From: a virus
IMG/VR virus record: IMGVR_UViG_3300029448_000525
Coordinates: 1 to 21,343 of that record
Direction: 5' to 3' (one strand)
Length of the DNA: 21,343 nt
The stretch's first letter is position 1; each line of letters starts with the position of its first letter. Of this stretch, positions 618 to 21,170 are shown in pieces. A program made the translations under genes and the position numbers. The notes beneath the pieces were generated by a model, which saw nothing but the letters and a program-made list of their open reading frames with translations, did no database searches and was not told the origin of the DNA.

Positions 618-1040
618 ATGGCATACAATAGTTCATCAGGTGGAGGTAATGACGGATACGTTCAAGGTAGAAGTACCTTTAAAGGATTTAGTTCAAGAGC
701 AGACAAAAGTAATTTTAAACTGTATGACTTTGCACTGATAAGACAGGATTTAATACATAGATTGTCAGTTAGAAAAGGCGAAAGAGTAGAGAATCCAGAA
801 TTTGGCACAATTGTATATGATGTGCTGTTTGAACCTTTAACTGACGCTGTAAAACAAGCAGTGGCAGATGATATTACAGCAAATCTCAATGCAGATCCAC
901 GTTTACAGACTGAAGAAATAGTGGTAAGTGAGTTTGAGCAAGGCATATCAGTACAGGCAACAATAAGATATGTGCCATACAATGTGGTAGAAAAACTTAC
1001 ATTTAGTTTTGATGAAAATGCCACGCTTCGTCTATCTTAA
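618..1040 (+). CDS. gp25: Baseplate wedge subunit gp25 (gpW/gp25 family, lysozyme-like fold)
   Basis: This 140-residue protein has the features of the T4 gp25 / phage P2 gpW family, which joins the baseplate wedge to the inner tail and sheath and is conserved in contractile injection systems (TssE in type VI secretion). The diagnostic part is the YDFALIRQDLIHRL segment (about residues 36-50), followed by the family signature NPEFGTIVYDVLFEPLTDAV at about residues 59-78, which carries the EP motif typical of gp25. A C-terminal beta-rich part with RYVPYNVVEKLTF follows. The length agrees with T4 gp25 (132 residues) plus a Gly/Ser-rich N-terminal extension of about 30 residues. The start at 618 lies 2 bases after the previous stop with only a weak upstream GGA, which suggests translational coupling. 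The gp6 gene follows, the usual partner in T4-like phages. The assignment is firm. Confidence 0.95.
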   Translation: MAYNSSSGGGNDGYVQGRSTFKGFSSRADKSNFKLYDFALIRQDLIHRLSVRKGERVENPEFGTIVYDVLFEPLTDAVKQAVADDITANLNADPRLQTEEIVVSEFEQGISVQATIRYVPYNVVEKLTFSFDENATLRLS

Positions 1041-1082: not shown

Positions 1083-4000
1083 ATGGCCACAACAGATAGA
1101 CAGAACCGACTTTTAGTTGCTGAAGATTGGCGGAAAATTTACACCGCTTTTCAACAAGCAGATTTTAAATCATACGATTTTGAAACCATTAGAAGAACAA
1201 TGGTTGCTTATCTAAGGGAAAATTATCCTGACGACTTCAATGACTATATAGAATCTTCTGAATATGTTGCACTGTTAGATTTAATTGCCTATGTTGCACA
1301 AAGTCTAAGTTTTAGAGTTGATCTTAATGCTAGAGAAAACTTTTTAGAAACTGCGGAAAGAAGAAATTCAGTTTTAAGATTAGCAAGATTAATAAATTAC
1401 AACGCAAAAAGAAACAAACCTGCTACTGGTTTTTTAAAGTTTGATTCAGTATCAACAACGGAAAATGTTACAGACTCGGCAGGCACAGATTTAACTAACA
1501 CCACTGTGGTTTGGAATGATGGCACAAATGCAAATTATAGAGAACAATTTGTTAATATTTTAAATGCGGCAAATGTTTCAGGACAATTTTTTGGCAAACC
1601 TGCAGAATCAGATACCATCGGTGGAATCAAAACAGAAATATACAACACAAATTCAAACAACACAGACTTACCAATCTTTACATTTAGAAGATCAGTAAGC
1701 GGAATAGATAGAACTTTTGAAATTGTGCCTAGCACAATAGAAGCATCAGAAAACATTTATGAAAAAACACCTTTGCCTGGAGGAGGATTTTCATATGTAT
1801 ATAGAACAGATGGTGCAGGCGACACGTCAAACAACACAGGATTTTTTGTATTATTCAAACAAGGTGCTATGGCCAATACAGAGTTTACTGTTGAATCACC
1901 TACAACAAATTTTGTACAACCTGTAAACACAAATAATATTAATGATTCAGATGTATGGCTATATCAATTAGATGATTTTGGACAAGTTGAAAAATTATGG
2001 GACAAAGTTCCTAGCACAGCAGGTAACAATGCAATTTATAATTCTCTTGCAAAAAATTTAAGAGACACATATAACGTTATTACAAAAAACAACGATGCAG
2101 TTGATTTAGTTTTTGGAGATGGAAATTTTTCAAACATTCCATCAGGTACTTTTAGAAGTTATTACAGGACATCTGATAATGCTAGATATAGTATTCAACC
2201 AGGAGACATGAACGGTGTAACTTTTTCTATAAACTACAATGACAAAAACGGAGCACCACAAACTTTAACTGTATCTGCAAGTCTACAACAATCAATTTAC
2301 AATGCGGCTCCTACAGAATCTACAAATTCAATTAAAGAAAAAGCACCACAGGCTTATTATTCACAAAATAGAATGATCACAGCAGAAGATTACAATGTGG
2401 TACCTCTTTCAGCCTCACAGGAAATAATAAAAGTAAAAGCAGTGAATAGAACTGCATCAGGTATTAGTAGAGCAAAAGAAATAAATGATCCAACAGGAGC
2501 ATATTCAAATGTGTCTGTGTTTGCTGAAGACGGTGTATTATTTCGAGAAGAGACAACACCTACATTTACTTTTACATTTAATAATACAAATGATATATTA
2601 AGCACTATTAACACCAGTGTAGAAAATAAATTAAAAGAAGCAACTGCAAGACAATTTTTTTATTTAAAATACGGCACAAAAGATTTAAGCACTTTAAGTG
2701 CTAGTTGGGTGTCTACAACAACAGGAACAAATACTAACACTGGTTATTTTAACGCAGGAGGTCCTTTAGCAGTTGGTGAATATGCAACTTCTAACTTAAA
2801 ACATGCAAAAGTTGGTGCACTAATAAAATTTACTTCACCAGACACTAGAGAATTTTTAAATGGAAAACTTGTTACTTCAGGAACTGATAATGCTGAAGAT
2901 AGATCATGGGCAAAAATTTCTGCTGTTGAAGGTGATGGATCAAATGCAGGAGAAGGTAATTTAGAGTCAGGTGTAGGTCCTGTGACTTTGAATAATGTTG
3001 TACCTGCAAATGCAGTATTATCAAAAATAATTCCTGTGTTTACAACAAGTTTTACAACAGCATTAAAAAATGATTTAATTGATAGAATAAACGCTTTTGA
3101 AGAATTTGGTTTAAGATTTAACGAAGATACAGGTGAATGGATAGTAATTACAAGTGCAAATTTAAGTTCGTCTAGTGTTTTCAGTTTAACAAACGCAGGA
3201 GACACAACAGCAACTAACTTAGATGCTAGTTGGTACTTTAAATTTACAAATGACGGTAACACTTACACTGTCACTTATAGATCTTTAGCATACATATTTG
3301 AATCCGAAGGACAAAATAAATTTCATTATGATAAAACAGAAAAAATTTACGACTACACAACAGGTAGATCTGTAAAAGATTCTGTAAAAGTATTAAAAAA
3401 TAACACTATACCTGCTTCTGGATTAGGTATAGGATATCCAATAAATTGGCAAATAGTAGACACAATTGAAGAAGATGATGGATATCAAGATAACAGAAAA
3501 GTACAAGTTGGTTTCTTCGACAGTGATGATGATGGAGTTGTTGATAATCCTGAAATATTTGATATTATTGTTGACCCAGATACCACACCTGCTACAAAAT
3601 TTGTATTCTTTGAAAAGTATACAAGTTACAATAACATTGAAAGATTTAGACCTTATGCTTCAACGAATTTTGTTGTTTCGCAAAACGAAACAGACATAAC
3701 TTTACCTGGCACATACACAAATGGACAATTGTTTTATTTTTATGATTCATCTGAAGATGTAATTAAAAAATATGATTCAAGTACTGTAACATTATCAACA
3801 ACTACAGACTATAGAGCAAGGAAAGGTAGAAGTTCTATCAACTTCCAATACAAGCACAATGCAGGACAAGACACAAGAATTGACCCTAGCGTCAGCAACA
3901 TTGTAGATATTTTCATGTTAGAAAGATCTTATGACACTAGATTTAGAACTTGGTTGAGAGAAGGCGGCACTAAACCTAATGCATCTACAAGCGATCAATT

Positions 4001-4598
4001 AAGAATTTCGTATAGCGGATTTTTAAATCCATTAAAAAGTTTATCTGATCAAATTGTTTATCATCCTGTAAAATACAAAATTTTATTTGGATCTAAATCA
4101 GACAGCGAATTTCAAGCAACATTTAAAGTTGTAAAAAACACAGGAACAAATGTTTCCAACGCAGTAATTCAAACTAGAGTAATTCAAGCAATTAATGAAT
4201 TTTTTGCATTGGATAATTTTGATTTTGGAGACACATTTTACTTTACAGAATTAGCGGCATATATTCATCAACAACTAGCACCTGATTTGCTTTCAGTTGT
4301 GATTGTGCCAAATCAGTCAGGCCAAGTTTTTGGATCATTATTCCAAATATCAGGTGCTGGCGATGAAATTTTTATCAGTGGGGCCACCGTTGATGACGTT
4401 TCTATAATTGATGCTATAAGTGCCAACCAATTGGCGGCTTCTGGCACAGTTGTTACATCAACCACAGATACGACAACATCAACTTCAAGATCAACATCAG
4501 CAGTATCATCGGTGACTTCTAGCACGTCCGGAAGCGGATACACATCTTCCTCAGGAGGATCGTCATCCAGTTCGGGCAGTAGTGGGTCAGGATACTAG
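1083..4598 (+). CDS. gp6: Baseplate wedge protein gp6 (gpJ-like), enlarged
   Basis: The protein is 1171 residues, against about 660 for T4 gp6, the wedge subunit that forms the inner ring of the baseplate and connects gp25, gp53 and gp7. The N-terminus matches marine-phage gp6: a helical block at residues 15-105 (DWRKIYTAFQQADF; AYLRENYPDDFNDYIE; ALLDLIAYVAQSLSFRVDLN; LRLARLINY). A central gpJ-like element at about 418-460 includes a stretch of the form AP..Y..NR.ITAEDYN. The end is typical, with a LLSVVIVPNQSGQVFGSLFQ segment and a final hydrophobic IIDAISANQL stretch. The extra length lies in beta-rich insertions between about 460 and 1000, one of which carries an EF-hand-like loop (813-824). 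The last 50 residues or so are a Ser/Thr/Gly-rich tail ending SGSGY. The stop is 2 bases before the next gene. The identity is strong; the role of the insertions is unknown. Confidence 0.93.
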   Translation: MATTDRQNRLLVAEDWRKIYTAFQQADFKSYDFETIRRTMVAYLRENYPDDFNDYIESSEYVALLDLIAYVAQSLSFRVDLNARENFLETAERRNSVLRLARLINYNAKRNKPATGFLKFDSVSTTENVTDSAGTDLTNTTVVWNDGTNANYREQFVNILNAANVSGQFFGKPAESDTIGGIKTEIYNTNSNNTDLPIFTFRRSVSGIDRTFEIVPSTIEASENIYEKTPLPGGGFSYVYRTDGAGDTSNNTGFFVLFKQGAMANTEFTVESPTTNFVQPVNTNNINDSDVWLYQLDDFGQVEKLWDKVPSTAGNNAIYNSLAKNLRDTYNVITKNNDAVDLVFGDGNFSNIPSGTFRSYYRTSDNARYSIQPGDMNGVTFSINYNDKNGAPQTLTVSASLQQSIYNAAPTESTNSIKEKAPQAYYSQNRMITAEDYNVVPLSASQEIIKVKAVNRTASGISRAKEINDPTGAYSNVSVFAEDGVLFREETTPTFTFTFNNTNDILSTINTSVENKLKEATARQFFYLKYGTKDLSTLSASWVSTTTGTNTNTGYFNAGGPLAVGEYATSNLKHAKVGALIKFTSPDTREFLNGKLVTSGTDNAEDRSWAKISAVEGDGSNAGEGNLESGVGPVTLNNVVPANAVLSKIIPVFTTSFTTALKNDLIDRINAFEEFGLRFNEDTGEWIVITSANLSSSSVFSLTNAGDTTATNLDASWYFKFTNDGNTYTVTYRSLAYIFESEGQNKFHYDKTEKIYDYTTGRSVKDSVKVLKNNTIPASGLGIGYPINWQIVDTIEEDDGYQDNRKVQVGFFDSDDDGVVDNPEIFDIIVDPDTTPATKFVFFEKYTSYNNIERFRPYASTNFVVSQNETDITLPGTYTNGQLFYFYDSSEDVIKKYDSSTVTLSTTTDYRARKGRSSINFQYKHNAGQDTRIDPSVSNIVDIFMLERSYDTRFRTWLREGGTKPNASTSDQLRISYSGFLNPLKSLSDQIVYHPVKYKILFGSKSDSEFQATFKVVKNTGTNVSNAVIQTRVIQAINEFFALDNFDFGDTFYFTELAAYIHQQLAPDLLSVVIVPNQSGQVFGSLFQISGAGDEIFISGATVDDVSIIDAISANQLAASGTVVTSTTDTTTSTSRSTSAVSSVTSSTSGSGYTSSSGGSSSSSGSSGSGY
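3519..3554 (+). other. EF-hand-like calcium loop inside gp6
   Basis: Residues 813-824 of the gp6 homologue read DSDDDGVVDNPE. This satisfies the 12-residue EF-hand/dockerin loop pattern: acidic at 1, 3, 5 and 9, Gly at 6, a hydrophobic residue at 8 and Glu at 12. It sits in a beta-rich insertion absent from the shorter T4 protein. Calcium binding is inferred from the pattern alone. No second loop or flanking EF helices are evident, so it would be a lone DxDxDG loop as found in many extracellular proteins. Confidence 0.5.
4438..4596 (+). repeat. Low-complexity Ser/Thr/Gly tail of gp6
   Basis: The last 53 or so codons of gp6 consist mostly of Ser, Thr and Gly, with runs such as TTDTTTSTSRSTS and GGSSSSSGSSGSGY. 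The segment has no hydrophobic core and is probably a flexible linker or tail. The extreme end also carries the ribosome-binding site for the next gene, so it is constrained at the DNA level too. Confidence 0.7.
4589..4592 (+). promoter_or_regulatory. Shine-Dalgarno AGGA for the giant gene
   Basis: AGGA lies 8 bases before the ATG at 4601, inside the last codons of gp6. It supports 4601 as the true start of the giant gene and coupled translation with gp6, whose stop is 2 bases before that ATG. Confidence 0.6.
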
Positions 4599-4600
4599 CG

Positions 4601-7600
4601 ATGGCAGACAGATCTATTAATTCACAAACCAATTCTGTAACATACAAAGACAAAAACGGAACTACCATACGTAGATCTGTTGCTCATTTGCCTGCTTTTT
4701 ACAGGACAGATAGTAATGAAAGATTTTTATCTAGTACATTAGATCAATTGATCCAACCAGGACAATTAGAAAGATTAGATGGATTTGTTGGACGTGAGTA
4801 TGCTTACACAAGGAATACTGCCAAAGACAAATATCTAACCGGCACAAGCACTGATAGGAAGAATTATCAATTAGAGCCGGCAGTGACTTACACTGATAGA
4901 GACACATCATCAGTAAATCCTGAGGATCAAGTAAAATTTACAGGCACTTATGATGATTATATTAATCAAATAAAATATTTTGGTGGACTTACAGACAATC
5001 ATGATAGATTAAGCAAAGAGAAAGTTTATGCATGGAATCCTGCTATAGACTACGACAAATTAATAAATTACAGAGAATATTATTGGATGCCAGAAGGTCC
5101 AAATCCAATATTAGTAAGTGCAGTAGGTACCGGTGCTATCACTGAGATTGATGTAGTCAACAACGCCGCTGGTGCTTACAATTTTAGCACTAGGACTGGA
5201 GTAGACAATCCAACATTGACATTATACAGAGGAAACACTTACAAATTTATTGTAAATGCCGCGGGACATCCTTTCTATATAATGACCGAACCTTACAAAA
5301 CAGGTGTAGCAGTTGATGGGTCAACATCAGTAATCTACAGCACTGGAGTTACTAATAATGGTACTGATAGTGGCACAGTAGAATTTGTTATACCAACAGA
5401 TGCTCCTGACACTTTATATTATCAGTGTGGTAACCATTCAGCAATGCATGGAGTCTTAAGAATAATGACTGTGAACAGTGCAACTAATATAAACGTAGAC
5501 GATGATATTATAGGAGCAAAAAATTATACTACATCAACAGGCGTGGTTTTATCAAATGGTATGAAAGTAAAGTTTCAATCTAATGTAACTGATAAAGATA
5601 CATATGAAAGAAATGAATTTTATGTTGAAGGGGTTGGAGACAAAATAACTTTATCCGATACAGTTAATTTAATAACACCTGAATCATATGCAACTGAAAC
5701 AACTACACTATACGACAGTGTTTCCTATGACACAAGACCATATGCTAAGGCATTTTATAGACCTGAAACAAAAGATTACATCACAATTAAAAGAGATTCA
5801 TTAGATCAAAATGCTTGGTCAAGATATAATAGATGGTTTCATAAATCAGTAATAGAAGCCACTGCGACAGCAAATGGTTTTACTCCAAACCTGTTAGAAG
5901 ATGACAGAGCAAAAAGACCAATTATTGAATTTGATAGTGGACTTGTATTATATGATCACGGAAAGGTTGCGAAGAATTCAGTTGCTTTGATAGATACTGT
6001 GACCACTGATGCATTTTCAGATGTTGTAAACCAAACAGGTTACATTGTTGATGGTATATCATTACAAGATGGAATGCGTGTATTGTTTACAGCAGACACA
6101 GATTCTTTAGTTAAGAATAAAATTTTTACAGTAAATTTTGTAAATGTTGGCGACAGCACAGTTGCCAAAGTAATTTCATTAACACCCACTACAGATACAG
6201 ATCCCGGAGATAGACAAAGTGTTTTTGTTGAACTAGGCACAAACAATCAAGGTAAAACATACTATTATGATTCTGCTACAACATCTTGGATAGCAGGGCA
6301 AACAAAAACAAAAGTAAATCAGCAACCGTTGTTTGATATGTTTGATAATAATGATGTAAGTTTTTCAAACACAACAACATATCCTAACACAAGTTTTACT
6401 GGTGCTAAAGTTTTTGAATTTAAAACTAGCACAACAGCAACCACTGATACCGTTCTAGGCATCAAAGTAAAATATAAAACAATTAACAATGTTGGAGATA
6501 TTGTATTTTCATCAGATACCGCCAGCGGTAGTTTCACATACAAAAGTGGCGAAGAGTTTTTAACAAAAAGTTATGGATCTGGGCACTTACAATATACAAC
6601 ATCTTCTACAAGCACAAGTCATATTAGCGGTTGGATTGAAAGAACAAATCAAAGCAAACAAAGAGTAATTAAAACAATTGTTGTCACAGCAGATGAAAAG
6701 AAATTATTTCCAATTGATGTTTATAAAAATTCAGCCAATCTTACAGATTTAGAAGTAAATGTAGATGTTAATAATAAAAGAAAAGATTTAACAACAGATT
6801 ATACTTTATCAGATGGGACAACAAACAGATACATTAATTTTGTAAAAGAACTAGCAGTTGGTGATTTAGTTAAAATATCTACGTATTCTGCAACAAAAAA
6901 AGTTGATGGAAAAGGCATTTATGAAGTACCTGAAAATTTAGCAATCAATCCTCTTAATGAACAACTTGATGAATTTACTTTTGGTGAAATTTCTAATCAC
7001 CTAGTTGATATTGTAGAAAAAAATTCAATTGTAACAGGTTCAATGCCTGGAAGTAGTAATTTAAGAGACCTTCCCGATGTAAGAACAAAAGGCGGTACAA
7101 TTTTACAACACAGTGCTTCCTTGGCTCCTGCTGTATTCAATCTTATTGATCAAGACGCAAATGCAATAAAGGCATTAGACTATGCAAATTTAGAATATCA
7201 AAAATTTAAAGAAAGTTTTTTATCAACAAGCACAACAAAAAGTTTTGAAGGAGATGTGCCTGCTTATGTGGATGAATTGATCGAAGCACTAGCAGAAAAT
7301 AAAACATCATCATTTGCTTTTTATTATGAAGATATGGTGGGTTATGGATCAAATGTATCATTAAGAACTTACACAGTACAAGATTCCACGGAAGTTGAAT
7401 ATGCAATAGACTCTGTTCACAGTATGACATCTACTAGCAACAGGGCAGTGTACGTATATCTCAATGATGTGCAATTACTAGTTGGCGACGACTATACCTT
7501 TAGCACAACTGATGATAGTATAACCATTAAAACCTCTTTAAACGAAGGAGATATCTTAAAGATAAAAGATTATGGTGATACAACTGCAAGTTTTATTCCT

Positions 7601-10600
7601 CCAACTCCAACTAAACTTGGAATGTATCCAAAGTTTAAACCTGAATCAGTAACTGACAACACATATAGAACAAGTCAAACAGTAATTGTTGGACATGATG
7701 GATCAAGAATGATTGCCTACGGTGATTATAGAGATGATTTATTGTTAGAATTAGAAAAAAGAATTTACAATAACTGTAAGACTGCCTATGACTCTGCTTT
7801 ATTAAATTATCAAGACGTAAGGCCATCTGGCTTCGCCAGCACAGATTACACTAACACAGAAGTCAATTCAATACTGGCACCAGATTTTTATTCATGGGCA
7901 GGAAGAAACGGTGTGGAATGGCAAAATAATTCTACATATAACGGCAATGACGCCTTTACATGGAATTACAATCTTACAATTGACTCAATTAATGGTGATC
8001 CGTTACCTGGTTATTGGAGAGGCATATACAAATTATTTTATGACACTGACAGACCTCACACACACCCTTGGGAGATGTTAGGCTTTAGTGAAAAACCAAG
8101 CACTTGGGAAACTAATTATGGTCCTGCACCATATACATCAGGCAACAGTGTGCTATGGGACGACCTTGCTTCTGGATACGATAGAGATGCAAAAACAACA
8201 AACACAAGATACATTAGAACAGGATTATCAAACTATCTGCCAGTCAGTGATTCAGGAACTTTAAGAACGCCAATAGAAATAGGAATTGTTGCAGGGGATA
8301 TTACAAGAAACACAAACAGAAATTGGACTTTTGGAGACCAATCACCTAGTGAGACTGCATGGAGAAGATCTTCTTCATATCCTTATTCGGTAATGAAATT
8401 ACTTGCATTGACAAAGCCAGCAAAATTCTTTGGATTATTTTTAGACAATTCAAGACTTACTAAAAATAAATCTAACAATCTTGTTGATAAAGAAACAGAA
8501 GTAAGACAAAAACTATCAACTGCTAGATATCATTTAGAAACAGAAACAAATGCAAGTGGAGTTTTAACAAGATACACCACAGCAGGATATCAGCCTTGGG
8601 TAGTAAACTATTTGATTAAAGAAAATTTAGACCCAGCAGTTTTTTATTACGACAAGATGAAAAATTTAAATGTGCAACTTGCTTATAAACTAGGCGGATT
8701 CACAGATAAAGCAAACTTAAAGGTATTAACAGATTCAACATCACCGGCGTCCACTGGAGGATCTCAGTTTATTCCTGATGAGAACTTTAAAATATTATTT
8801 AGAACATCTAATCCTGTGAATAGTTTTGATTACTCTGGTATATTAGTAGAATTGAATACAAACATAAGTTCAGATGGATCTACTTTACAAGGAGGATACA
8901 AAGTAATAGGTTATAATTCTCTTAGACCTTTTTTCAAAGTTTTACGACCAATGATTAATGGCAATACTACAAAAATTACAGTTGGCAATAGTTCTGCAGT
9001 TGTATATAAAAATTTTACGGATAGTGTTGACACAGTAACATATGGCACAGTTTTTGAATCTCTTCAAGAAGTTGTTAATTTTATAATTGGTTATGGCAAA
9101 TATTTAGAATCACAAGGATTTGTTTTTGATAATTTTTCAAATGAAATAAAAGAAGCATTAAATTTTGACACGTCAGTAAAAGAATTTTTATATTGGTCGC
9201 AACAAGGTTGGGCGGCAGGATCGGCTATCACTTTATCTGCAGGAGCCAACGGTTTTGCAGTGAATACAGATAATAGTATTATTAGTAGACTGACAAACAA
9301 TAAGGGCGATTATTCTATTTTGGATGCAGGCGGTAGAACAATAGCAAGAAAAGATATTACAACAAAAAGAGCAGGTACCACATTTAGTTTAGGAATTAAA
9401 AACGACGAAGTAGGTGTGTTTAATGCATCAATGAACGCAGTGCAAAAAGAACATGTTTTATTATTTGATAATAAAACAGTTTTCAATGATGTAATTTTAG
9501 AACTTGCAACAGGATTCAGGCAACAAAGGTTAAAACTTGTTGGTTGGAAAACTGGAGGTTGGAATGGTGATTACTATTCTCCTGGATTTGTATTTGACGA
9601 AGCAAGGGTGTCACTTTGGTCTGCAAACACAAATTATGAGATAGGGGACACAGTTGAGTATGATGCTAAATTTTTTGTAGCAAAAAAGAATCATAACAGT
9701 GGTGCAAGTTTTGATTTTGAACAATGGCAGAAGAAAGACAACAAACCTAGACCAACTTTAATACCAAACTTCGACTATAAGATTAGTCAATTTAATGACT
9801 TTTATAACCTTGAAACTAATAATTTTGATGAAAGCCAACAAGGACTTGCACAGCATTTAATAGGTTATCAAAGTAGGCCTTATTTAGAAAATTTATTTGT
9901 TAATGACATTTCACAATACAAATTTTATCAAGGATTTATTAGAGACAAAGGTACATCCACAGCAATAGATAGATTATTAAAAGCACAATTCAATGATGAA
10001 AGTCTTTCTATAGACACATATCCAGAATGGATGATAAGAGTTGGAGAATTTGGCAACGTAGATGCACTTAAATCAGTGCAAATAAAAATGCCAGATGATA
10101 AATTTACAAACAACATACAATCTATTGAATTATTAGATGCAGGAGCCACACAACAATATACTAGATCAGCGGCGATATCTAGTGATGATTTGTATTCAAC
10201 TCCTTTAGAATACACGGCCAGCACAACTTTTGGCAGATACGATTATACCAAACAAGGATTTGATAGAGAAACTCCTCAGGTTTTAAAAAATGCAGGATGG
10301 CCAAGATTACAAGATGTTCAACACACATCGTTTGATATAAAACAACTTGAAAATCTTGATATGAACAATATTAACAATAACGATTTGGTGTGGATTGCTA
10401 AGAAGACAAACACAGATTGGGACGTCCAGAGAGTAACATCAACGAATAATACTGTAAAAACAATTCAGTCATTCAATGATGACACGCAACTTTTAATCAA
10501 CACAAATTTAAGTCATTCATTTGCAAAAGGAGAGTACATTGGAATACGTAATTCACAATTTGATGATTTGAATGGAGTTTATGAAATACAAGATGTACCT

Positions 10601-13600
10601 ACAGGTAAACAAATATTAATTAATTTTATTAACGGAAGCAAATTAGGTGCTGGAGTTTCAATATTACAAGATGAATCAACCTTTAGTACATATGGAGATG
10701 TTTATAAATTTGTTAGTGTGAGACTAGCATCAATGAACAATGTAAATGATCTTTTAAGTTATGGGGATTACAGATTTAAAGATACTATAAACAAACAAAA
10801 CGGTGACAGAGTTTTTGTAGATAACACAAGTTCAAATTGGAAAATATATGAAAAAGAAGACCCATACACAACTACTTTATTAAACAGTCCCGACACAACT
10901 AATGATCAAGACTTTGGATATAGGATTGTAGGTAGAGAAGACGGAAGAACACTTGTTGTTTCTGCACCATCAGTTGGGCAAGGTACTATACACTTCTTCT
11001 TTAGACGTAGTGCAGATGCAGGCACAGCCTTTACAGTGCAAAACAGTTTAACAATGACTGAGAACGATGATACTTCTTCTAGATTAGGAGAAAGTTTATC
11101 TATAAGTTCAGACGAAAATTTTATAGTTGCTGGTGCACCTTTTACAAATGCAATTGGCTTTGACGGTAGCACAAGATTTACAGATAGTGGTTTGATTAAA
11201 ACTTACATATGGAATCAAAGCACATTTAGTTATATTTTGCTCAGTACAATAACTGGACCAAGTGATGGATCAACTAACTTAGAAAATGCAAACTTTGGAT
11301 TTTCAACTGCCATTGCAGAGCCAACTGATTCAGCAGGTAGAACAACAACGCCTAAGTTGATGTTTGTTTCTGCACCAGGACACTCAAATGACACTGGCAT
11401 AGTCCATATGTATGATTGGAATGTTGGTGCTGATGGTTCAACTTATGATACTTGGACACAAAGAGTAGCAATTCAATCAAATGATCCAGATGGCGGACAA
11501 AGATTTGGACATAGAGTCAAAGTAAATGACAATGGCGACATATTGGCAGTATCTTCAAAAGCAACAGGTGTAGCCGGAAAAGTTGAAATTTTTACTAGAA
11601 GCAGTACAAAAAATGATGACAGTACAACTTATGCTTGGACACACAAACAAACTTTAACAGGTGCATCTGCTGATGGATCAACACTAAACACACAGTTTGG
11701 TGAGGACATTGCAATGAGCAAAGATGGCACAAGATTATTTGTTACAGCACCTGGTTATGACAAAACAAATCAAGCAGATGCAGGAGCACTTTATTACTAC
11801 AAATTCAACGATGATGGTTCTACTAACACGTATACACTTAAACAAACAGTAGAGGCTCCGGACTTGCAAACAAACATGAAGTTTGGTACTTCAATTGACT
11901 GTAACCAAGCAGGTAATAGACTAACCATTGGTGCAGAAAAATTAGGTAACTTCCGAGAAATGGCATTTGACAGCGGTGCTACCACCTTTGACTTACAAGA
12001 CACAACAGTGGTTGATCAGAACATAGGATCAGGTGGAGTGTACACTGCTACAATGTATGACACACTATTTGTTGTTGACGATAGATTAGTCACAACTAAA
12101 GTTAGTTCAAATGATGATTTTGGCAGAGGAGTGTTTATAAATGACAGAGGAGTTTATGTAGGTGCGCCAGAAGATGATTCATCTAGTGGAGTATCCAACG
12201 ATGGTACAGTGACATCTTTTGAATTAAACACTTTGGCATCTTACACTTGGAACGAACTTGTAACAGAATCTAATTTTATAGATAATAGAAAAATTAAATC
12301 TGCTTTTACATTTGATAGAGCAAATAATGAAATTATTGACTACCTAGATTATTATGATCCTGCAAAAGGAAGAATTTTAGGTGTAGCGGATAGAGAATTA
12401 AATTATAAAACAGAATGGGATCCTGCTGTATATAATGTTGGTGAAGGTTCTGTAACTGTTAATCAAGGTACTGCATGGGGAGAAGAACACATCGGTGAAG
12501 TTTGGTGGGATCTGTCGACATCAAGATATCAATGGTACGAACAAGGAACTCAAGAATACAAAAGTAAACATTGGGGAGAACTATTTCCAGGATCGAGTGT
12601 TGATGTTTACGAATGGGTAGAGTCAAGAGAAGCACCAACGGATTATGACAATCTGTCTGATACATCTACAGGACTTTCAAGAAATATTAGTGGTACTCCA
12701 AAATACGCAGATAACACTGTGTACACAATTAAACAAAAGTATGACAGTAAGTCTAACAGTTTTGTACCTTATTATTACTATTGGGTAAAAAATTCAGTAT
12801 TCTTGCCAGATTCAGGCAAAAGTGTTGTACAAAGAAAAAACACAACAGGATATATTGCAAACATAATTGAAAACCCTTTAGCATCAGGATTAAAATATTT
12901 TACAGTCACAGACACTAATAAACTATTAACCTTTAATGTCAAAGACAGTTTATTCAACGACAATGTTGTGCTTAATGTTGATTACTCAGATAACAACGAA
13001 GACAATGAAACACATTCGGTATGGAAGTTATTCAGTGAAGGTGATCCCAACGATAGACCAGGCACAAGAATAGAAAACAAATGGTGGGATAGTTTGATAG
13101 GTGCAGACAATTCAGGAAACACAGTGCCTGATTTGGACTTGGCTTTGAATAGGAAGTATGGTACTGCTTTAAGACCAAGACAAAGTTGGTATGTTAACAG
13201 ATTCAATGCGTTAAAAGAAATTGTAGATTATGCAAATTCAGTGTTGAAAAAGAATGAACTTGCAAATACTATTTCATATACAAATTTAAATGATGAAGAA
13301 GCACAACCATCTGCAGAATCAGGCTTATGGGATGGATCAGTTGACACGTATGCTGACCTAACCTACATTGACACTAGAGACCTAAGTGGCACAGTAAACT
13401 ATCTAGTAAAAGCAGACGAACAAAACTCTAATGGATTTTGGGCAATATATCAATGGGACGGCACATCTTGGAATAGAACAAGACTACAAACTTATAAAAC
13501 CAACGCCTACTATGAACTAGCAGATTGGTATGGTACTGATACTGATGTACATGAAATGGTACACAGTGCAGACACACCTATAGATGCACAGGTAACTTTT

Positions 13601-16600
13601 GAATATGAATTAGATACTTTAGATCTTGAAGTAGGCAAACACGTCAAAGTAACAAAAGCAGATACTGGTGGTTGGAAATTGTTTATGAAAACATCAACTG
13701 GTTACACAAATGTAGGCACTGAAAATGGAACTATACAACTTAAAAATTCTCTATATGATTATTCAATTGACAACACTGGATACGCAGGAGATGACACATT
13801 TGATGATAACTTCTTTGATCAAGAACCAACGATAGAAACAAGAAAAATTCTTACTGCTTTACGAGATGATATTTTTATTGGCGCATTAAAAAGTGAATAC
13901 AACAATTTGTTCTTTATAGGTTTAAGAAAAGTTTTAGAAGAACAAGGATACGTTGATTGGCTGTTTAAAACCAGTTTCTTAAATGTAAAAAATAATTTTA
14001 GAGAACTTACTCAAAGAAAAACTTACACAACTGGTGCAGATTCATACGTTGAAGAATATATTAATGAAGTAAAACCTTTTCACACTAAATTACGAGAATA
14101 TAAAGTAGGTTATAATAAAACGGAAACGCAAGATGGACTGTTCTCTGACTTTGACAATCCACCTTTTTATGATGCCACAATAAATTCAATTAGAAATTTA
14201 GATGCAGGCAGTACCGCTGACGGTACACGTATAACTGAATATCCATACAAAATATGGAACGACAATTATAAAAAAGGTGTCAAAACTATCACACTTAATA
14301 GTGGCGGTAGTGGTTATAGCACAGCGCCAACCGTCACTTTTGTTGGAGGCACTAATGAAAACGCTGGACCATTCCAAATTTTAGGTAGAAGCAATTCTGG
14401 AAGCACATCAGGTGACTATGGTTACTTCTATCCATTGTTCTCAGTAGAACAAAATGCAAATATCTATGATACACAGCAAGGTGGTTCTGGCAGATCATTC
14501 ATTGTAACTTTTGAAGAACATGCCGGTAAAACTTTTTATATGCCTGCAAGTACAACAAATGAAGCGTTAAGCACAAGAGATTTTTCTTTCAAAATGTATG
14601 AAGAACCAAACCTTACTCATGCAACTGCAACTGCTGTGGTACAAGGTGGGGCAGTCACAAAAATAAATTTATTAACAACTGGTTTGGGTTATACAGTAAC
14701 GCCAAAAATTTTATTAGTTGGTGGAGCATCAGATGGGTCAACTCCAACTGACACTGCAAAAGCATACGCAAATTTAAACAACGACCTTGTAAGAGACATT
14801 GATGTCACTATGAAGTTTAATAGAGTAGATCAAAGTGCAACTGTGTTCGAATGGGCAAAAAATACTACATTCTCATATGGTGCATTAGTTAGATATAACA
14901 ATGAACTTTATAGGGTAACGAAAACATTTACAAGCACAACTAAATTTGATGAATCAATTGGCAGTTTAACAAAATTACGTGGCGATGAATCTTTCTTAAC
15001 AGCGGCAGGAAGAACTTTAGGTATGTACACACCAGATTCCGGCATGGCAGGCAATGACCTTACGCAATTAATGGAAGGTATTGATTATGGCGGAGTAATG
15101 GTTACAGGATTGCTGTTTACTGAATCACAAGGTTGGGATAGGTCACCATGGTTTGATAATCCTTGGGACAACTATGGATCTACAAAAACAAAAACATTTT
15201 ACGGTGATGGTTCGACTGTGCTTTATACATTTGATTCTGCACCAATCATTGGTGATGTCTACACAGTGTATTACAATGGAGTAAGACAGACTGCTGATGT
15301 GTTCAGAGGTGATGGATCAACCACACAATTTACTTTGTCCACTGCACCAGGAGATGGAGTAAAAGTTGAACTTATTTTGTTTGACGATGACAAAGTTTTA
15401 ACACCAACTGACGATAGAACTTTAGATACTTTATTATCAGGTGGATTGTTTAGTACAGCGGTTGGTATAGCACCTGGAGACATTATACAAGATGGAGATG
15501 CTTTTATTTCTCCTGAAACAAGTTTTGCACCAGAAGAAAATGTGCCAGGACAAATTTTTGACACACTAGACATTACAGTTTACACAACACCAGAATCAGG
15601 AGTGCCTTTTATTGTAGACAAAACATACAGAGGAGATGACACAACAACCACTTTTGCTATTGGACAACAACCAGGCACACAAGCAGGTGTAATGGTAGTG
15701 GTAGATGGTGTTCATCAAAATTCTTTAGCAAGTGACAGCACAGTAAATTACACAGTAGACACAGCGGCTAAAACAATTACGTTTACAACAGCACCAAAAA
15801 ACAATGCTGTTGTTAATATAAAAAGTTTTGCAGTATCAGGTAACAACTATGTATTGTTGAACAGTTTTACTGGAGATGGTAGCACTACTGCTTTCACCAC
15901 TGGAGCAAGGGACACATATCAATTAGACAGTGCTTTACCTCAACTTTATGTAACAGTAGATGGCCAACCCACAACTGCGTTCAGCACTAGTGAACAGAAC
16001 AAGGCTGTCACTGTGACTTTTGACACTGCTCCTGCATCTGGAAAAGCAATACAGATTGCTGGATTCAATCAAGATCCAAGCACAAGGGCGTTTGCAGAAA
16101 TTAGATCAGAAGACATTTTGTTTGACGGGTCAACAACAACTTACACTTTAGATTATCCTCCAGGCGCAATTGGACCTTTTGCTGGAGAAACTTTAATAGA
16201 AGTAAATGGAGTTTTATTGAGAGGACCAGACAACACTTATTACAGTGCTGATGGATCAACTTACACTTACAGTGTATTGACATCATTCTCAGATGGATCA
16301 ACAGTTGATCCTGCTAAAACAATAACAAGTGCAAGTCAAATTGAAGTTTATAAAAACGGAATAAAACAATTATTGAACACAGATTACACTGTAAACACCA
16401 CAACACAAAACATTGACTTTGTAAATGTTCCTGATCCTAGTGATGTTATTGCAATAACAACTTTAGTTGACAATCATTATGCCATGGTAGCCAATGATGT
16501 AATTTTAGACCTTACACAAATTGCTAACGATGGAATAACTTTGAGTACAGGCGATGTAGTTAGAGCAACAACTTTTAACAATGCTTTGGGTATGAAACAA

Positions 16601-17503
16601 AGAAGAGAAGTTCTAGAAGGTAGACCGTCTGGAGAATTGTTCTTGTACAACGAACCTTTAAACAGTGATTATGTTTTTGTTACATTGAATGGATCAAGAG
16701 CACTTGTACAAAATACAGATTTCACACTTGTTGGTAACAAAATAACTGTTCACGGTATAACTTTAAGTAGCACAGACAGAATAGACGTCATGTATTTTGC
16801 TTTAGAGTCAGCCACAAACGCAACAGGATTTAGAATTTTCAAAGACATGTTGAACAGAACTTTTTACAAACGTATTAGTTCAACTAACACAACAACACTA
16901 GCGGCGGCCATCGAAGATGGTGATGCAACAATTACAGTTAGAGACGGAAATGTTCTTACTGATCCAGATGCATCTGTTAACATGCCAGGTGTTGTGTTTG
17001 TAGATAAAGAAAGAATAGAATATTTTACCAAGTCAGGAAACACTCTCGGACAACTAAGGAGAGGTACACTTGGAACAGGAATTAGGGCACATGCCTCCGG
17101 CGCAAACGTAGTGGACGCTGGCGGACAACAAACTGTGCCTTATGCTGACACAGTAGCAACCAAAACCCATACAGGTGATGGAAGCACTGTCAGTTTCGCT
17201 ACTACATACGCTCCGTCTCGTGGTGAAGATTTAGACATATTCATTGGTGGCCAACGATTGTTGTTTAAACACGAGACGGACGATAGTACATTGACAAGAG
17301 GTTATTCAGTAGACGGGAGTACTGCTAACGTAACACTAACAACCGCTCCAGCGTCAGGCACACAGATAAAAATTGTGCAAAAACGTGGTAATACATGGTA
17401 TAACGTAGGAGCATCAACAGCCGCTGATGGTAAAGGATTACAACAATCTGATACTGCACAGGCCAAATTCATAGCAGGAGAACCAACAAATGCACCAGAA
17501 TAA
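4601..17503 (+). CDS. Giant multidomain virion structural protein (4300 residues)
   Basis: This single uninterrupted frame follows gp6 at a 2-base gap, where T4 has gp7/gp8. From memory, unchecked, marine T4-like genomes carry very large proteins here, sometimes annotated VrlC-like. It has no signal peptide or membrane segment. Modules in order: a conserved-looking N-terminus (1-200; e.g. FLSSTLDQLIQPGQLERLDG); a cupredoxin-like domain (about 203-290); a long region with aromatic motifs such as PHTHPWEMLGF (near 1150); a CBM5/12-like W...W module (1673-1709); seven FG-type propeller blades (2104-2545); Trp-rich segments with VWWDLS (near 2630) and FWAIYQWDGTSWNRTR (near 2950); a helical stretch (about 3100-3180, e.g. 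FFIGLRKVLEEQGYVDWLF); a split GxGY-repeat region (about 3233-3378); a second W-module (from 3418); and GDGST-type beta-repeats (3535-4250) interrupted by a compact domain (about 4097-4182). The composition suggests an extended, beta-rich exterior particle protein, probably a peripheral baseplate or fibre-like component. Its exact role is inferred from position and modules. Confidence 0.85.
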   Translation: MADRSINSQTNSVTYKDKNGTTIRRSVAHLPAFYRTDSNERFLSSTLDQLIQPGQLERLDGFVGREYAYTRNTAKDKYLTGTSTDRKNYQLEPAVTYTDRDTSSVNPEDQVKFTGTYDDYINQIKYFGGLTDNHDRLSKEKVYAWNPAIDYDKLINYREYYWMPEGPNPILVSAVGTGAITEIDVVNNAAGAYNFSTRTGVDNPTLTLYRGNTYKFIVNAAGHPFYIMTEPYKTGVAVDGSTSVIYSTGVTNNGTDSGTVEFVIPTDAPDTLYYQCGNHSAMHGVLRIMTVNSATNINVDDDIIGAKNYTTSTGVVLSNGMKVKFQSNVTDKDTYERNEFYVEGVGDKITLSDTVNLITPESYATETTTLYDSVSYDTRPYAKAFYRPETKDYITIKRDSLDQNAWSRYNRWFHKSVIEATATANGFTPNLLEDDRAKRPIIEFDSGLVLYDHGKVAKNSVALIDTVTTDAFSDVVNQTGYIVDGISLQDGMRVLFTADTDSLVKNKIFTVNFVNVGDSTVAKVISLTPTTDTDPGDRQSVFVELGTNNQGKTYYYDSATTSWIAGQTKTKVNQQPLFDMFDNNDVSFSNTTTYPNTSFTGAKVFEFKTSTTATTDTVLGIKVKYKTINNVGDIVFSSDTASGSFTYKSGEEFLTKSYGSGHLQYTTSSTSTSHISGWIERTNQSKQRVIKTIVVTADEKKLFPIDVYKNSANLTDLEVNVDVNNKRKDLTTDYTLSDGTTNRYINFVKELAVGDLVKISTYSATKKVDGKGIYEVPENLAINPLNEQLDEFTFGEISNHLVDIVEKNSIVTGSMPGSSNLRDLPDVRTKGGTILQHSASLAPAVFNLIDQDANAIKALDYANLEYQKFKESFLSTSTTKSFEGDVPAYVDELIEALAENKTSSFAFYYEDMVGYGSNVSLRTYTVQDSTEVEYAIDSVHSMTSTSNRAVYVYLNDVQLLVGDDYTFSTTDDSITIKTSLNEGDILKIKDYGDTTASFIPPTPTKLGMYPKFKPESVTDNTYRTSQTVIVGHDGSRMIAYGDYRDDLLLELEKRIYNNCKTAYDSALLNYQDVRPSGFASTDYTNTEVNSILAPDFYSWAGRNGVEWQNNSTYNGNDAFTWNYNLTIDSINGDPLPGYWRGIYKLFYDTDRPHTHPWEMLGFSEKPSTWETNYGPAPYTSGNSVLWDDLASGYDRDAKTTNTRYIRTGLSNYLPVSDSGTLRTPIEIGIVAGDITRNTNRNWTFGDQSPSETAWRRSSSYPYSVMKLLALTKPAKFFGLFLDNSRLTKNKSNNLVDKETEVRQKLSTARYHLETETNASGVLTRYTTAGYQPWVVNYLIKENLDPAVFYYDKMKNLNVQLAYKLGGFTDKANLKVLTDSTSPASTGGSQFIPDENFKILFRTSNPVNSFDYSGILVELNTNISSDGSTLQGGYKVIGYNSLRPFFKVLRPMINGNTTKITVGNSSAVVYKNFTDSVDTVTYGTVFESLQEVVNFIIGYGKYLESQGFVFDNFSNEIKEALNFDTSVKEFLYWSQQGWAAGSAITLSAGANGFAVNTDNSIISRLTNNKGDYSILDAGGRTIARKDITTKRAGTTFSLGIKNDEVGVFNASMNAVQKEHVLLFDNKTVFNDVILELATGFRQQRLKLVGWKTGGWNGDYYSPGFVFDEARVSLWSANTNYEIGDTVEYDAKFFVAKKNHNSGASFDFEQWQKKDNKPRPTLIPNFDYKISQFNDFYNLETNNFDESQQGLAQHLIGYQSRPYLENLFVNDISQYKFYQGFIRDKGTSTAIDRLLKAQFNDESLSIDTYPEWMIRVGEFGNVDALKSVQIKMPDDKFTNNIQSIELLDAGATQQYTRSAAISSDDLYSTPLEYTASTTFGRYDYTKQGFDRETPQVLKNAGWPRLQDVQHTSFDIKQLENLDMNNINNNDLVWIAKKTNTDWDVQRVTSTNNTVKTIQSFNDDTQLLINTNLSHSFAKGEYIGIRNSQFDDLNGVYEIQDVPTGKQILINFINGSKLGAGVSILQDESTFSTYGDVYKFVSVRLASMNNVNDLLSYGDYRFKDTINKQNGDRVFVDNTSSNWKIYEKEDPYTTTLLNSPDTTNDQDFGYRIVGREDGRTLVVSAPSVGQGTIHFFFRRSADAGTAFTVQNSLTMTENDDTSSRLGESLSISSDENFIVAGAPFTNAIGFDGSTRFTDSGLIKTYIWNQSTFSYILLSTITGPSDGSTNLENANFGFSTAIAEPTDSAGRTTTPKLMFVSAPGHSNDTGIVHMYDWNVGADGSTYDTWTQRVAIQSNDPDGGQRFGHRVKVNDNGDILAVSSKATGVAGKVEIFTRSSTKNDDSTTYAWTHKQTLTGASADGSTLNTQFGEDIAMSKDGTRLFVTAPGYDKTNQADAGALYYYKFNDDGSTNTYTLKQTVEAPDLQTNMKFGTSIDCNQAGNRLTIGAEKLGNFREMAFDSGATTFDLQDTTVVDQNIGSGGVYTATMYDTLFVVDDRLVTTKVSSNDDFGRGVFINDRGVYVGAPEDDSSSGVSNDGTVTSFELNTLASYTWNELVTESNFIDNRKIKSAFTFDRANNEIIDYLDYYDPAKGRILGVADRELNYKTEWDPAVYNVGEGSVTVNQGTAWGEEHIGEVWWDLSTSRYQWYEQGTQEYKSKHWGELFPGSSVDVYEWVESREAPTDYDNLSDTSTGLSRNISGTPKYADNTVYTIKQKYDSKSNSFVPYYYYWVKNSVFLPDSGKSVVQRKNTTGYIANIIENPLASGLKYFTVTDTNKLLTFNVKDSLFNDNVVLNVDYSDNNEDNETHSVWKLFSEGDPNDRPGTRIENKWWDSLIGADNSGNTVPDLDLALNRKYGTALRPRQSWYVNRFNALKEIVDYANSVLKKNELANTISYTNLNDEEAQPSAESGLWDGSVDTYADLTYIDTRDLSGTVNYLVKADEQNSNGFWAIYQWDGTSWNRTRLQTYKTNAYYELADWYGTDTDVHEMVHSADTPIDAQVTFEYELDTLDLEVGKHVKVTKADTGGWKLFMKTSTGYTNVGTENGTIQLKNSLYDYSIDNTGYAGDDTFDDNFFDQEPTIETRKILTALRDDIFIGALKSEYNNLFFIGLRKVLEEQGYVDWLFKTSFLNVKNNFRELTQRKTYTTGADSYVEEYINEVKPFHTKLREYKVGYNKTETQDGLFSDFDNPPFYDATINSIRNLDAGSTADGTRITEYPYKIWNDNYKKGVKTITLNSGGSGYSTAPTVTFVGGTNENAGPFQILGRSNSGSTSGDYGYFYPLFSVEQNANIYDTQQGGSGRSFIVTFEEHAGKTFYMPASTTNEALSTRDFSFKMYEEPNLTHATATAVVQGGAVTKINLLTTGLGYTVTPKILLVGGASDGSTPTDTAKAYANLNNDLVRDIDVTMKFNRVDQSATVFEWAKNTTFSYGALVRYNNELYRVTKTFTSTTKFDESIGSLTKLRGDESFLTAAGRTLGMYTPDSGMAGNDLTQLMEGIDYGGVMVTGLLFTESQGWDRSPWFDNPWDNYGSTKTKTFYGDGSTVLYTFDSAPIIGDVYTVYYNGVRQTADVFRGDGSTTQFTLSTAPGDGVKVELILFDDDKVLTPTDDRTLDTLLSGGLFSTAVGIAPGDIIQDGDAFISPETSFAPEENVPGQIFDTLDITVYTTPESGVPFIVDKTYRGDDTTTTFAIGQQPGTQAGVMVVVDGVHQNSLASDSTVNYTVDTAAKTITFTTAPKNNAVVNIKSFAVSGNNYVLLNSFTGDGSTTAFTTGARDTYQLDSALPQLYVTVDGQPTTAFSTSEQNKAVTVTFDTAPASGKAIQIAGFNQDPSTRAFAEIRSEDILFDGSTTTYTLDYPPGAIGPFAGETLIEVNGVLLRGPDNTYYSADGSTYTYSVLTSFSDGSTVDPAKTITSASQIEVYKNGIKQLLNTDYTVNTTTQNIDFVNVPDPSDVIAITTLVDNHYAMVANDVILDLTQIANDGITLSTGDVVRATTFNNALGMKQRREVLEGRPSGELFLYNEPLNSDYVFVTLNGSRALVQNTDFTLVGNKITVHGITLSSTDRIDVMYFALESATNATGFRIFKDMLNRTFYKRISSTNTTTLAAAIEDGDATITVRDGNVLTDPDASVNMPGVVFVDKERIEYFTKSGNTLGQLRRGTLGTGIRAHASGANVVDAGGQQTVPYADTVATKTHTGDGSTVSFATTYAPSRGEDLDIFIGGQRLLFKHETDDSTLTRGYSVDGSTANVTLTTAPASGTQIKIVQKRGNTWYNVGASTAADGKGLQQSDTAQAKFIAGEPTNAPE
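5206..5470 (+). other. Cupredoxin-like domain with complete type-1 copper ligand set
   Basis: Residues about 203-290 of the giant protein begin with NPTLTLYRGNTYKF, a cupredoxin first strand. The segment GHPFYI carries His223 and YYQCGNHSAMHG carries Cys276, His279 and Met282. The Cys-x2-His-x2-Met spacing is the one found in amicyanin, and a distant upstream His is the expected fourth ligand. The preceding TGVTNNGTDSGTVEFVIP fits the strands before the ligand loop. Similar domains, with motifs like YYCxNHSGM, occur in marine phage and bacterial surface proteins from memory, so here the fold may be structural. Whether copper is bound in the virion is unknown. Confidence 0.75.
9617..9727 (+). 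other. CBM5/12-like carbohydrate-binding module, first copy
   Basis: Residues 1673-1709 have the chitin-binding type 5/12 layout: Trp1673, then NYEIGDTVEYDAKFFVAKK, then HNSG, then a closing Trp1709 after FDFEQ. This pattern (W....Y..GD.V.Y....F.A...H.SG......W) is common in phage tail and chitinase modules and suggests glycan contact. The assignment is by pattern only, and the module is short. Confidence 0.55.
10910..12240 (+). other. Seven-bladed FG-GAP-type beta-propeller
   Basis: Residues 2104-2545 contain seven units, each opening with (F/L)G: FG2105, LG2162, FG2232, FG2302, FG2366, FG2428 and FG2507, spaced 57-79 residues apart. Most continue with a turn such as REDGRT, NDNGDI, SKDGTR or NDRGVY, then a strand of type LVVSAP, FVTAP or VGAP, and then a Gly-led strand such as GTIHFF or GALYYYKF. 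This is the FG-GAP_2-like integrin-alpha propeller repeat. Seven copies match a closed propeller, usually a ligand- or glycan-binding platform. Blade 6 (IGAEKLGN) is the most degenerate. No catalytic residues are evident. Confidence 0.75.
14296..14735 (+). repeat. Split GxGY..P repeat region
   Basis: Residues about 3233-3378 contain one unit GGSGYSTAPTVTFVGG and a second GLGYTVTPKILLVGG, separated by about 110 residues. The intervening segment (with GYFYPLFSVEQNANIY, GGSGRSFIVTFEEHAGKT and FYMP) differs in composition. It ends at ATATAVVQGGAVTKINL, which is the expected middle of a GxGY repeat. The arrangement looks like one beta-repeat unit with a separate domain inserted in its loop. Confidence 0.55.
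14852..14990 (+). other. CBM5/12-like module, second copy (degenerate)
   Basis: From Trp3418 the giant protein reads WAKNTTFSYGALVRYNNELY and then RVTKTFTSTTKFDE, which follows the same W...Y.G..V.Y....Y.V spacing as the module at 1673-1709. The closing Trp is missing, so it is less certain than the first copy. Confidence 0.35.
15203..17340 (+). repeat. GDGST-type beta-repeats in the C-terminal third of the giant protein
   Basis: Nine (G)DGST or GDDTT motifs were located at residues 3535, 3570, 3678, 3758, 3842, 3884, 3898, 4192 and 4238, typically as GDGSTTxFTL followed some residues later by TAPxxG and a strand such as VxVxVDGV or VYYNGVR. Units with (A/S)APASGTQIKI or TFTTAPKNNAVVNI endings are clear. 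Such repeats are common in tail-fibre and baseplate-associated proteins of marine phages and probably form small beta-sandwich domains in series. Copies differ in length (about 35-110 residues) and in degree of decay. Confidence 0.7.
16890..17145 (+). other. Compact domain of the type found in marine phage fibre proteins (giant protein residues 4097-4182)
   Basis: Between two groups of GDGST repeats lies a block containing LAAAIEDGDATITVRDG, MPGVVFVDKERIEYF, LGQLRRGTLGTGIRAHASG and QQTVPY. This order of motifs (TITV, PG..F.D.ERIEY, L..LRRGTLGT...HASG) is one I associate, from memory, with structural proteins of marine T4-like phages. Its function is unknown. Confidence 0.5.
17476..17480 (+). 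promoter_or_regulatory. Shine-Dalgarno AGGAG for the 17490 start
   Basis: AGGAG lies 9 bases before the ATG at 17490, inside the end of the giant gene. It favours 17490 over the in-frame ATG at 17514 on read-through messenger RNA. Confidence 0.6.
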
Positions 17504-19709: not shown

Positions 19710-21170
19710 ATGGCGTACACAATCAACAAAACAGACGGAACAGTAGTTGTAACAATTACAGATGGCACAGTAGATAACACTACAAGTTTACAATTATTTG
19801 GAAAAAGTTATTCAGGATTTGGTGAAGGACTTAACGAAAATCTTGTTAAATTATTAGAAAATTCAGCATCAACATCAGCACCAACGGCACCATTATTAGG
19901 TGAACTTTGGTTTGATACAAGTGCAAACACAATTAAAGTTTATGACGGAACAGCATTCAAGCCAACAGGTGGTGCAAGATCACAAAGCACAGCACCAACA
20001 TCTGCTTCAGCAGGCGACCTATGGCATGATTCAGATGATGATCAAGTATACTTTTACACAGGATCAGCATTCCAATTATTAGGTCCTGTATTCACTTCAG
20101 GACAAACACTTTCAGGTTGGAAGATAGAAACAGTAACAGCAAGTAGTGTAAACAAAGTTATTTCTTCAATGTTTGTGGGTAACACAAGAGTTGCAGTATT
20201 ATCAAAAGAAGCATTTACACCAGATGCAGGATCACCGACAAGCACACCTTTGGCCGCAAATGGATTTGCCACAGTGGCTTCAGGCTTAACACTTAATTCA
20301 ACATTAGGTGCTAGTTTCTCAGGAAACTCTGCACAAGCAAGTGCTGTTGATGTCAGTGGCACAACAAATACTTCAGCAACAGTAATTGCTGGCGGTAATT
20401 TTTTAAGAGCAGATGCATCAGACACAACAACAGGCGCCTTAACAATTGATAGTGACTCAGGTTTATTGGTTGGTGACGAACAAGAATTAACCATTACAGC
20501 AAGTTCAGGTGATATCACAATAGCACAAACTAGACAAGATAAAGATTTAAGTTTTACAATAAATGATGGTGGGGTCACTAAAACTCCATTAACATTTGCA
20601 GGTAGCACAGGAAATATTACATTAACAGGTAACACTACAATTACAGGTAACCTAAGCATTACAGGTGAATTTGAAAACACATCTTCTGGCATAATCACAG
20701 TTGATGACGCTTTTGTTAAAGTAAACACAGGAAATTCAGAAGTAGACGCAGGACTAATAGTAGAAACTTCTGACACAGATGATGCTAGAATATTTTATGA
20801 TGTATCCGAAAACTATTGGGCCGCTGGAGAAAATCAATCTTACTCTCAAGTGGTAAGAGTTGCTGACCTCACAGACGACGGTGATGCCAACAAAGGCACA
20901 AAAGGTCTAACAACAGATTCATCAACAGGAGATTTAAAAGTAACCAGTTTGACATTGGGAGCAGTAGGGTCAAACATCGCAACATCAGATACTTCAAACG
21001 CCAAAGCACCAAGCATTGGTCAAGTGGCAGAATCTATTAAACGTTGGGGTGGCAGTTTCATATCAGATGACAGTAGTAACAGCGTAGCAGGTAATAGATA
21101 CGTTGAAACATCATCACCTACCAGCGGTCAGGGTTCAGATGGAGATCTTTGGTTTGTAAGGGAGGCGTAG
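19710..21170 (+). CDS. Tail-fibre-like structural protein, paralogue of the preceding gene
   Basis: The protein is 486 residues. The start MAYTINKTDGT aligns with MAYTVNKTNSS of the upstream gene, and the two share GxSYSGFGEGLNENLVKLLEN, two GxLW units (GELWFDTSANTIKVYDG from residue 64 and GDLWHDSDDDQVYFYTG) and the central block FLRADASDTTTGALTI (from about 230) with DLSFTINDGGV. It is therefore a tandem duplicate. The C-terminal part differs: DDAFVKVNTGNSEVDAGLIV, a YDVSENYWAAGEN segment, then a final GDLWFV unit at the very end instead of a YADLAE domain. No hydrophobic signal is present. It is followed closely by a glycine-rich adhesin-like gene, so it probably belongs to the host-recognition fibre set. 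Exact function is inferred. Confidence 0.82.
   Translation: MAYTINKTDGTVVVTITDGTVDNTTSLQLFGKSYSGFGEGLNENLVKLLENSASTSAPTAPLLGELWFDTSANTIKVYDGTAFKPTGGARSQSTAPTSASAGDLWHDSDDDQVYFYTGSAFQLLGPVFTSGQTLSGWKIETVTASSVNKVISSMFVGNTRVAVLSKEAFTPDAGSPTSTPLAANGFATVASGLTLNSTLGASFSGNSAQASAVDVSGTTNTSATVIAGGNFLRADASDTTTGALTIDSDSGLLVGDEQELTITASSGDITIAQTRQDKDLSFTINDGGVTKTPLTFAGSTGNITLTGNTTITGNLSITGEFENTSSGIITVDDAFVKVNTGNSEVDAGLIVETSDTDDARIFYDVSENYWAAGENQSYSQVVRVADLTDDGDANKGTKGLTTDSSTGDLKVTSLTLGAVGSNIATSDTSNAKAPSIGQVAESIKRWGGSFISDDSSNSVAGNRYVETSSPTSGQGSDGDLWFVREA
21159..21165 (+). promoter_or_regulatory. Shine-Dalgarno AGGGAGG for the last gene
   Basis: AGGGAGG lies 11 bases before the ATG at 21177, within the last codons of the previous gene. 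It is the strongest ribosome-binding match in the window and supports 21177 as the start. Confidence 0.6.

Follow-up and report, generated by a model that had tools for sequence, protein, structure and literature searches.

A giant protein in the baseplate-wedge slot of an uncultured aquatic phage combines a conserved scaffold with exchangeable modules, including a cupredoxin with a predicted copper site

Very large proteins encoded after the baseplate wedge protein gp6 are known in marine T4-like phages. In T4 this place is taken by gp7 (1032 aa). In cyano- and pelagimyophages gp7 is reported to be missing and to be substituted by VrlC (PMC7029224), a case which we compare with our protein by description only. 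Cyanophage S-8S29 (L175:2078-20917) encodes a protein of 6279 aa in the slot after gp6, and the KGT segment of this protein matches T4 gp7 (probability 91-94%, E 1e-6 to 8e-8). The wedge model PF23786 aligns with three successive parts of the S-8S29 protein (residues about 3-50, 670-722 and 3448-3489). Each part by itself scores below the cutoff and the first 1000 residues score above it, so that there is a precedent for a wedge domain interrupted by huge insertions; judged from these matches, one domain is apparently divided there into three distant pieces.

Giant proteins are also encoded in the baseplate operon of jumbo phages, where annotations usually call them hypothetical or simply structural. 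These proteins form the family phrog_10938, whose named isolate members are PA5oct gp355, Atu_ph07 gp180, CBB_236, 121Q gp582, SCTP-2 gp140 and Phosso 294. In PHROGs the family is classed as 'head and packaging', though it sits in the baseplate operon. Complete members are 2608-4937 aa long (3300-4560 aa in the jumbo isolates), a range from which shorter frames labelled 'complete' were left out because the frames of their contigs are broken. For the family as a whole, IMG/VR holds at least 598 matching stretches. The order gp25-gp6-giant gene is found in five of the six isolates examined (PA5oct, Atu_ph07, 121Q, CBB and Phosso); in SCTP-2 (L003), unlike the other isolates, a gp6-like gene lies roughly 95 kb from the giant gene. 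Two members were detected in virions: PA5oct gp355 by ESI-MS/MS, as noted in the genome record, and CBB_236, identified from the CBB genome as the gene adjoining gp6, with 21 peptides and 7.7% coverage in the CBB virion proteome (PMC5259590).

The stretch of DNA analyzed here (the window) is an IMG/VR virus fragment of 21,343 bases, in which a gp25-type gene, a gp6-type gene and a giant ORF follow each other in this order on the plus strand (Table 1). As the first-pass annotation had stated, the giant ORF is a single open frame of 4300 residues directly after gp6, and the computed mass of its product is 476 kDa. The longest stop-free run in the other frames across the gene is 104 codons. A search against PHROGs assigned the protein to phrog_10938 (virion structural protein, E 0) over four stretches along the chain, and tblastn identified homologues with 25-32% identity in PA5oct and its kin, Atu_ph07, Phosso, SCTP-2, 121Q/PBECO4, RaK2, CBB and others. 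Nothing new came from related-locus scans in which slices of PA5oct and Atu_ph07 were used alone, a PDB sequence search with the whole giant protein gave nothing useful and NCBIfam gave no usable match to it. Because the family spans the size range given above, follows gp25-gp6 and has two members in virions, the size and position of the window protein are ordinary for phrog_10938; presence in virions is known for its relatives PA5oct gp355 and CBB_236. The window protein is a member of a known family of giant baseplate-operon proteins and its architecture is a new variant. The source is an uncultured aquatic phage, probably a T4-like myovirus and possibly a jumbo phage. The gp6 of the window is much longer than that of T4 (1171 versus 660 aa) and ends in a Ser/Gly/Thr-rich tail of ~50 residues. 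Downstream, at 18209-19699 and 19710-21170, are the genes of two fibre-like proteins whose N-termini resemble each other (MAYT[VI]NKT ... LW[YF]D ... KVYDG).

Table 1. Features of the window. Positions are nucleotides of the window; residues are those of the giant protein.
Feature	Residues	Position	Strand	Basis
gp25-type baseplate wedge protein		618..1040	+	PF04965 E 7.6e-8; phrog_43
gp6-type baseplate wedge protein, 1171 aa		1083..4598	+	phrog_10646 E 5e-293; Gp6-like_1st sub-cutoff
Giant protein gene		4601..17503	+	4300 aa, 476 kDa; phrog_10938, 1190 bits
Conserved N-terminal segment, LPxFYRTD...F...LDQL (proposed anchor 1)	22-62	4664..4786	+	kept in jumbo relatives
Cupredoxin domain	178-291	5132..5473	+	predicted structure, Foldseek, VIA; Pfam sub-cutoff
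Putative copper ligand H223	223	5267..5269	+	alignment of relatives
Putative copper ligand C276	276	5426..5428	+	alignment of relatives
Putative copper ligand H279	279	5435..5437	+	alignment of relatives
Putative copper ligand M282	282	5444..5446	+	alignment of relatives
Conserved core, GHDGS and PWEMLGF motifs	400-1650	5798..9550	+	25-32% identity with jumbo phages
CBM5/12-type module 1	1673-1703	9617..9709	+	PF02839 E 0.001 in slice
Conserved KGT segment, FYQGFIRDKGT (proposed anchor 2)	1738-1826	9812..10078	+	invariant F, G, K, G, T, G columns
Seven-bladed FG-GAP propeller	2087-2553	10859..12259	+	FG-GAP_2 E 1.9e-10; predicted structure
Conserved core	2551-2900	12251..13300	+	shared with jumbo phages
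Conserved segment ending INEVKPFHTKLREY (proposed anchor 3)	3095-3180	13883..14140	+	conserved in relatives
Two GxGY units	units at 3236, 3361	14273..14725	+	
CBM5/12-type module 2	3417-3445	14849..14935	+	PF02839
GDGST beta-module region	3530-4260	15188..17380	+	exact GDGST copies; weak DUF2460 match

An alignment with the jumbo isolates delimits a common core (residues about 27-150, 400-1650, 1750-1850, 2550-2900 and 3000-3250), and the variable parts of the same alignment include the cupredoxin, the first CBM and the propeller. The jumbo isolates thus share the homologous core and, in most cases, the gene slot, but are without the cupredoxin and the FG-GAP propeller; some have CBM5/12 modules. 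The combination of cupredoxin, CBM and propeller occurs in all 45 near sequences (the window included), in 17 of 38 more distant metagenome members and in none of the isolated jumbo phages examined. The combination of modules in one chain is thus unusual, being confined, among the members examined, to uncultured aquatic phages. Because the core is shared with the jumbo isolates and the modules are present or absent from member to member, the giant chain is, on the evidence of these alignments, a conserved scaffold with exchangeable modules. A distant relative (L115:7103-21064) has a YHYH domain (PF14240, E 4.7e-38) at its residues 3400-3583 as an extra module; this domain was not detected in the window protein. 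In slice models the core up to residue 1190 folded with confidence. The lists of Foldseek and VIA matches were dominated by the cupredoxin and the propeller, and barely covered the core slices 400-1190 and 2551-2830. Residues 688-761 resemble small chains of podovirus tail structures in the model (VIA Z 8.5, a value that is common), a likeness we take as a hint.

Profile and structure searches upheld three of the proposed module types, namely the cupredoxin, the CBM5/12 modules and the propeller. The propeller had been described as having seven units, and seven were counted in a region that matches FG-GAP_2 and whose model superposes on the integrin-alpha propeller with Z 36.2 and 3.1 A over 369 residues. 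Sequence identity to integrin-alpha is 16-20% and, unlike in integrin-alpha, DxDxDG calcium loops are absent from residues 2087-2553; for the latter reason only the fold is claimed to be of the integrin-alpha type. The predicted W-type glycan-binding-like modules correspond to two CBM5/12 modules, which together score above the curated cutoff for the whole protein (E 5.7e-7, 29.9 bits versus 26.2), each copy alone being below it. The GDGST repeats were confirmed as four exact copies (residues 3535, 3570, 3758 and 4192) plus looser variants, whereas the GxGY motif is present in merely two units.

The cupredoxin-like domain noticed in the sequence was recovered by Pfam below the cutoff, by a profile search of the PDB with few and marginal matches (among them azurin, nitrite reductase and pseudoazurin) and by structure prediction. 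Best Foldseek matches of the domain model were rusticyanin and plastocyanin (prob 1.00), and VIA-align superposed it on Cu nitrite reductase with Z 8.3 and 1.9 A over 93 residues. Residues H223, C276, H279 and M282 correspond to the ligand pattern H...C-x2-H-x2-M of type-1 copper proteins. The window copy therefore shares both fold and ligand set with type-1 copper cupredoxins such as rusticyanin, plastocyanin, azurin and Cu nitrite reductase, but differs from them in being a domain inserted in a virion protein, with copper binding putative. On the basis of the aligned sequences, the giant chain contains a complete, conserved plastocyanin-type predicted copper site.

Among 88 aligned relatives, all four ligands are present in 37, the domain is kept with a degenerate site in 29 and the domain is missing in 22. 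Being absent or degenerate in so many members, the cupredoxin is not essential to the basic role of the family. The 29 degenerate copies, which retain the domain on several branches of the tree, favor the view that the cupredoxin fold serves as a rigid interaction module only and that the H/C/H/M set has no metal function. Opposed to this view is the way in which the ligands are kept and lost: in the 37 sequences that have C276 it never occurs without the other three, and C276 and H279 are both gone from each of the degenerate copies. In addition, a tree of the core columns places the complete site on separate deep branches (at least 4 changes). H, H and M were found in all 79 readable sequences of a further set of 80 metagenome copies, which had been retrieved with a pattern that itself includes the cysteine. 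The cupredoxin module alone was found in 350 of 50,697 phage records (for example L177, L178, L179 and L180), nearly all from marine picocyanophages, where it mostly resides in gp9, and a few from Pelagibacter phages; four sampled cyanophage/podovirus copies kept all four ligands. One copy in the phage collection matches Pfam Copper-bind weakly. The persistence of the site in deep branches and in cyanophages also argues against a copper-free module, which we regard as rather unlikely. As far as sequences can tell, the module and its ligands wander among the tail proteins of marine phages, chiefly cyanophage gp9. In the literature searched, we found no report of a cupredoxin in phage tails or of FG-GAP propellers in phages, and no description of a virion protein that has all four copper ligands in a module recurring in 350 phage records.

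The first-pass annotation suggested that the giant protein may be a mega-sized replacement for gp7/gp8-type wedge parts. Part of this suggestion stands. The gene occupies the gp7 slot after gp6, and neither gp7 domain V nor gp8 (PF09215) was recognisable anywhere in six complete jumbo relatives, while T4 and Vibrio phage K491 were positive as controls. Homology to gp7 was not demonstrated and no positive evidence was found for the gp8 part: PF09215 has no match in the giant protein, nor do the gp7 Pfam domains PF21427, PF21428 and PF21456, all three of which are matched by T4 gp7 itself. HMM-HMM comparisons of core slices, the KGT segment and a composite of the three conserved segments with T4 gp7, P2 gpI and the cyanophage protein gave nothing significant. 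The best composite alignments to these three proteins all fall on the KGT motif; the one to gpI scored just above the shuffle maximum (16.4 versus 15.8 over 60 column shuffles), which is not significant, and those to gp7 and the cyanophage protein lie inside the shuffle range. In a profile-profile comparison of the giant family with T4 gp7 the probability was <10%, and since the same method also fails on gpI versus gp7, these negative results say little either way. T4 gp7 was not among the Foldseek/VIA matches listed for the slice models, and a scan with P2 gpI returned near-identical copies only.

What the window protein shares with T4 gp7 is the place after gp6 and a KGT-like motif in comparable order, whereas their sizes differ, the gp7 Pfam domains are unmatched and no profile match is significant. 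Three conserved segments (the LPxFYRTD N-terminus, KGT at ~1783 and KPFHT at ~3150) occur in the same order as the gp7-type wedge pieces. In the slice models, the N-terminal segment has low to middling pLDDT. Residues 1755-1808 of the KGT segment have pLDDT under 50 despite its invariant positions, as would be expected if this segment needed a partner to fold. The S-8S29 giant protein is similar in slot, in length and in having repeats of the GxGY and GDGST-like kinds, but its profile match to the window protein is in repeat modules only, and its gp7 signature is detectable while that of the window protein is not. We infer a gp7-like role for the window protein but do not file it as a gp7 member.

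The lack of significant homology to gp7, the adhesion-like nature of most recognisable modules (CBM5/12, propeller, GDGST) and the fibre-like genes downstream would also suit a fibre-type or side-appendage adhesin that merely adjoins gp6, the job of gp7 being done by another, undetected protein. The distribution of the parts speaks against such an adhesin, as jumbo phages whose hosts differ widely share the core (400-1650, 1750-1850, 2550-2900 and 3000-3250), while the adhesion modules are present in some members and missing from others. The gene almost always follows gp25-gp6, and the six complete relatives have no gp7 or gp8 elsewhere. We consider this explanation unlikely, although it has several points in its favor. 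That the giant ORF is an assembly artefact in which two or more genes were joined, a possibility merely raised by the first-pass annotation and for which no supporting point was found, is refuted for practical purposes by its relatives: more than 40 other IMG/VR contigs carry the whole gene (4183-4666 aa in most; 56-81% identity in the best segments), which excludes a false fusion or chimeric join, and genes of the same kind are present in isolate genomes. The region 4601-17503 encodes a genuine full-length protein of an uncultured aquatic phage.

Given the observed gene order, family membership, module folds and conserved copper ligand set, we think it probable that the window protein is a giant phrog_10938 protein of the baseplate-wedge slot of an uncultured aquatic T4-like (possibly jumbo) myovirus, in which short conserved segments anchor the chain to gp6 and the modules point outward. 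In such an arrangement the N-terminal, KGT and KPFHT segments would tie the chain to gp6 within the wedge, the part that gp7 plays in T4, and the large beta-rich core would build the body and periphery of the baseplate. The inserted modules would face outward, where glycans of the cell surface could be bound by the CBM5/12 modules, and fibres or the host surface by the propeller and the GDGST modules. A single copper ion would sit in the cupredoxin, and this site would serve for stability or for binding a ligand; that it responds to redox state is less likely.

Telling a conserved core apart from swappable surface modules yields a map, open to testing, of the way in which such phages may make contact with the cell. 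The virion-borne predicted copper site is the surprising part of the finding and the one most worth an experiment. It is conceivable, though we hold it as a doubtful conjecture, that a functional type-1 copper centre is present in the tail or baseplate proteins of many aquatic phages, most marine picocyanophages among them, and serves in adsorption, for instance as a trigger or adhesin that depends on copper or redox state. If copper is bound, the site would raise the question of metal or redox chemistry during phage adsorption in the ocean.
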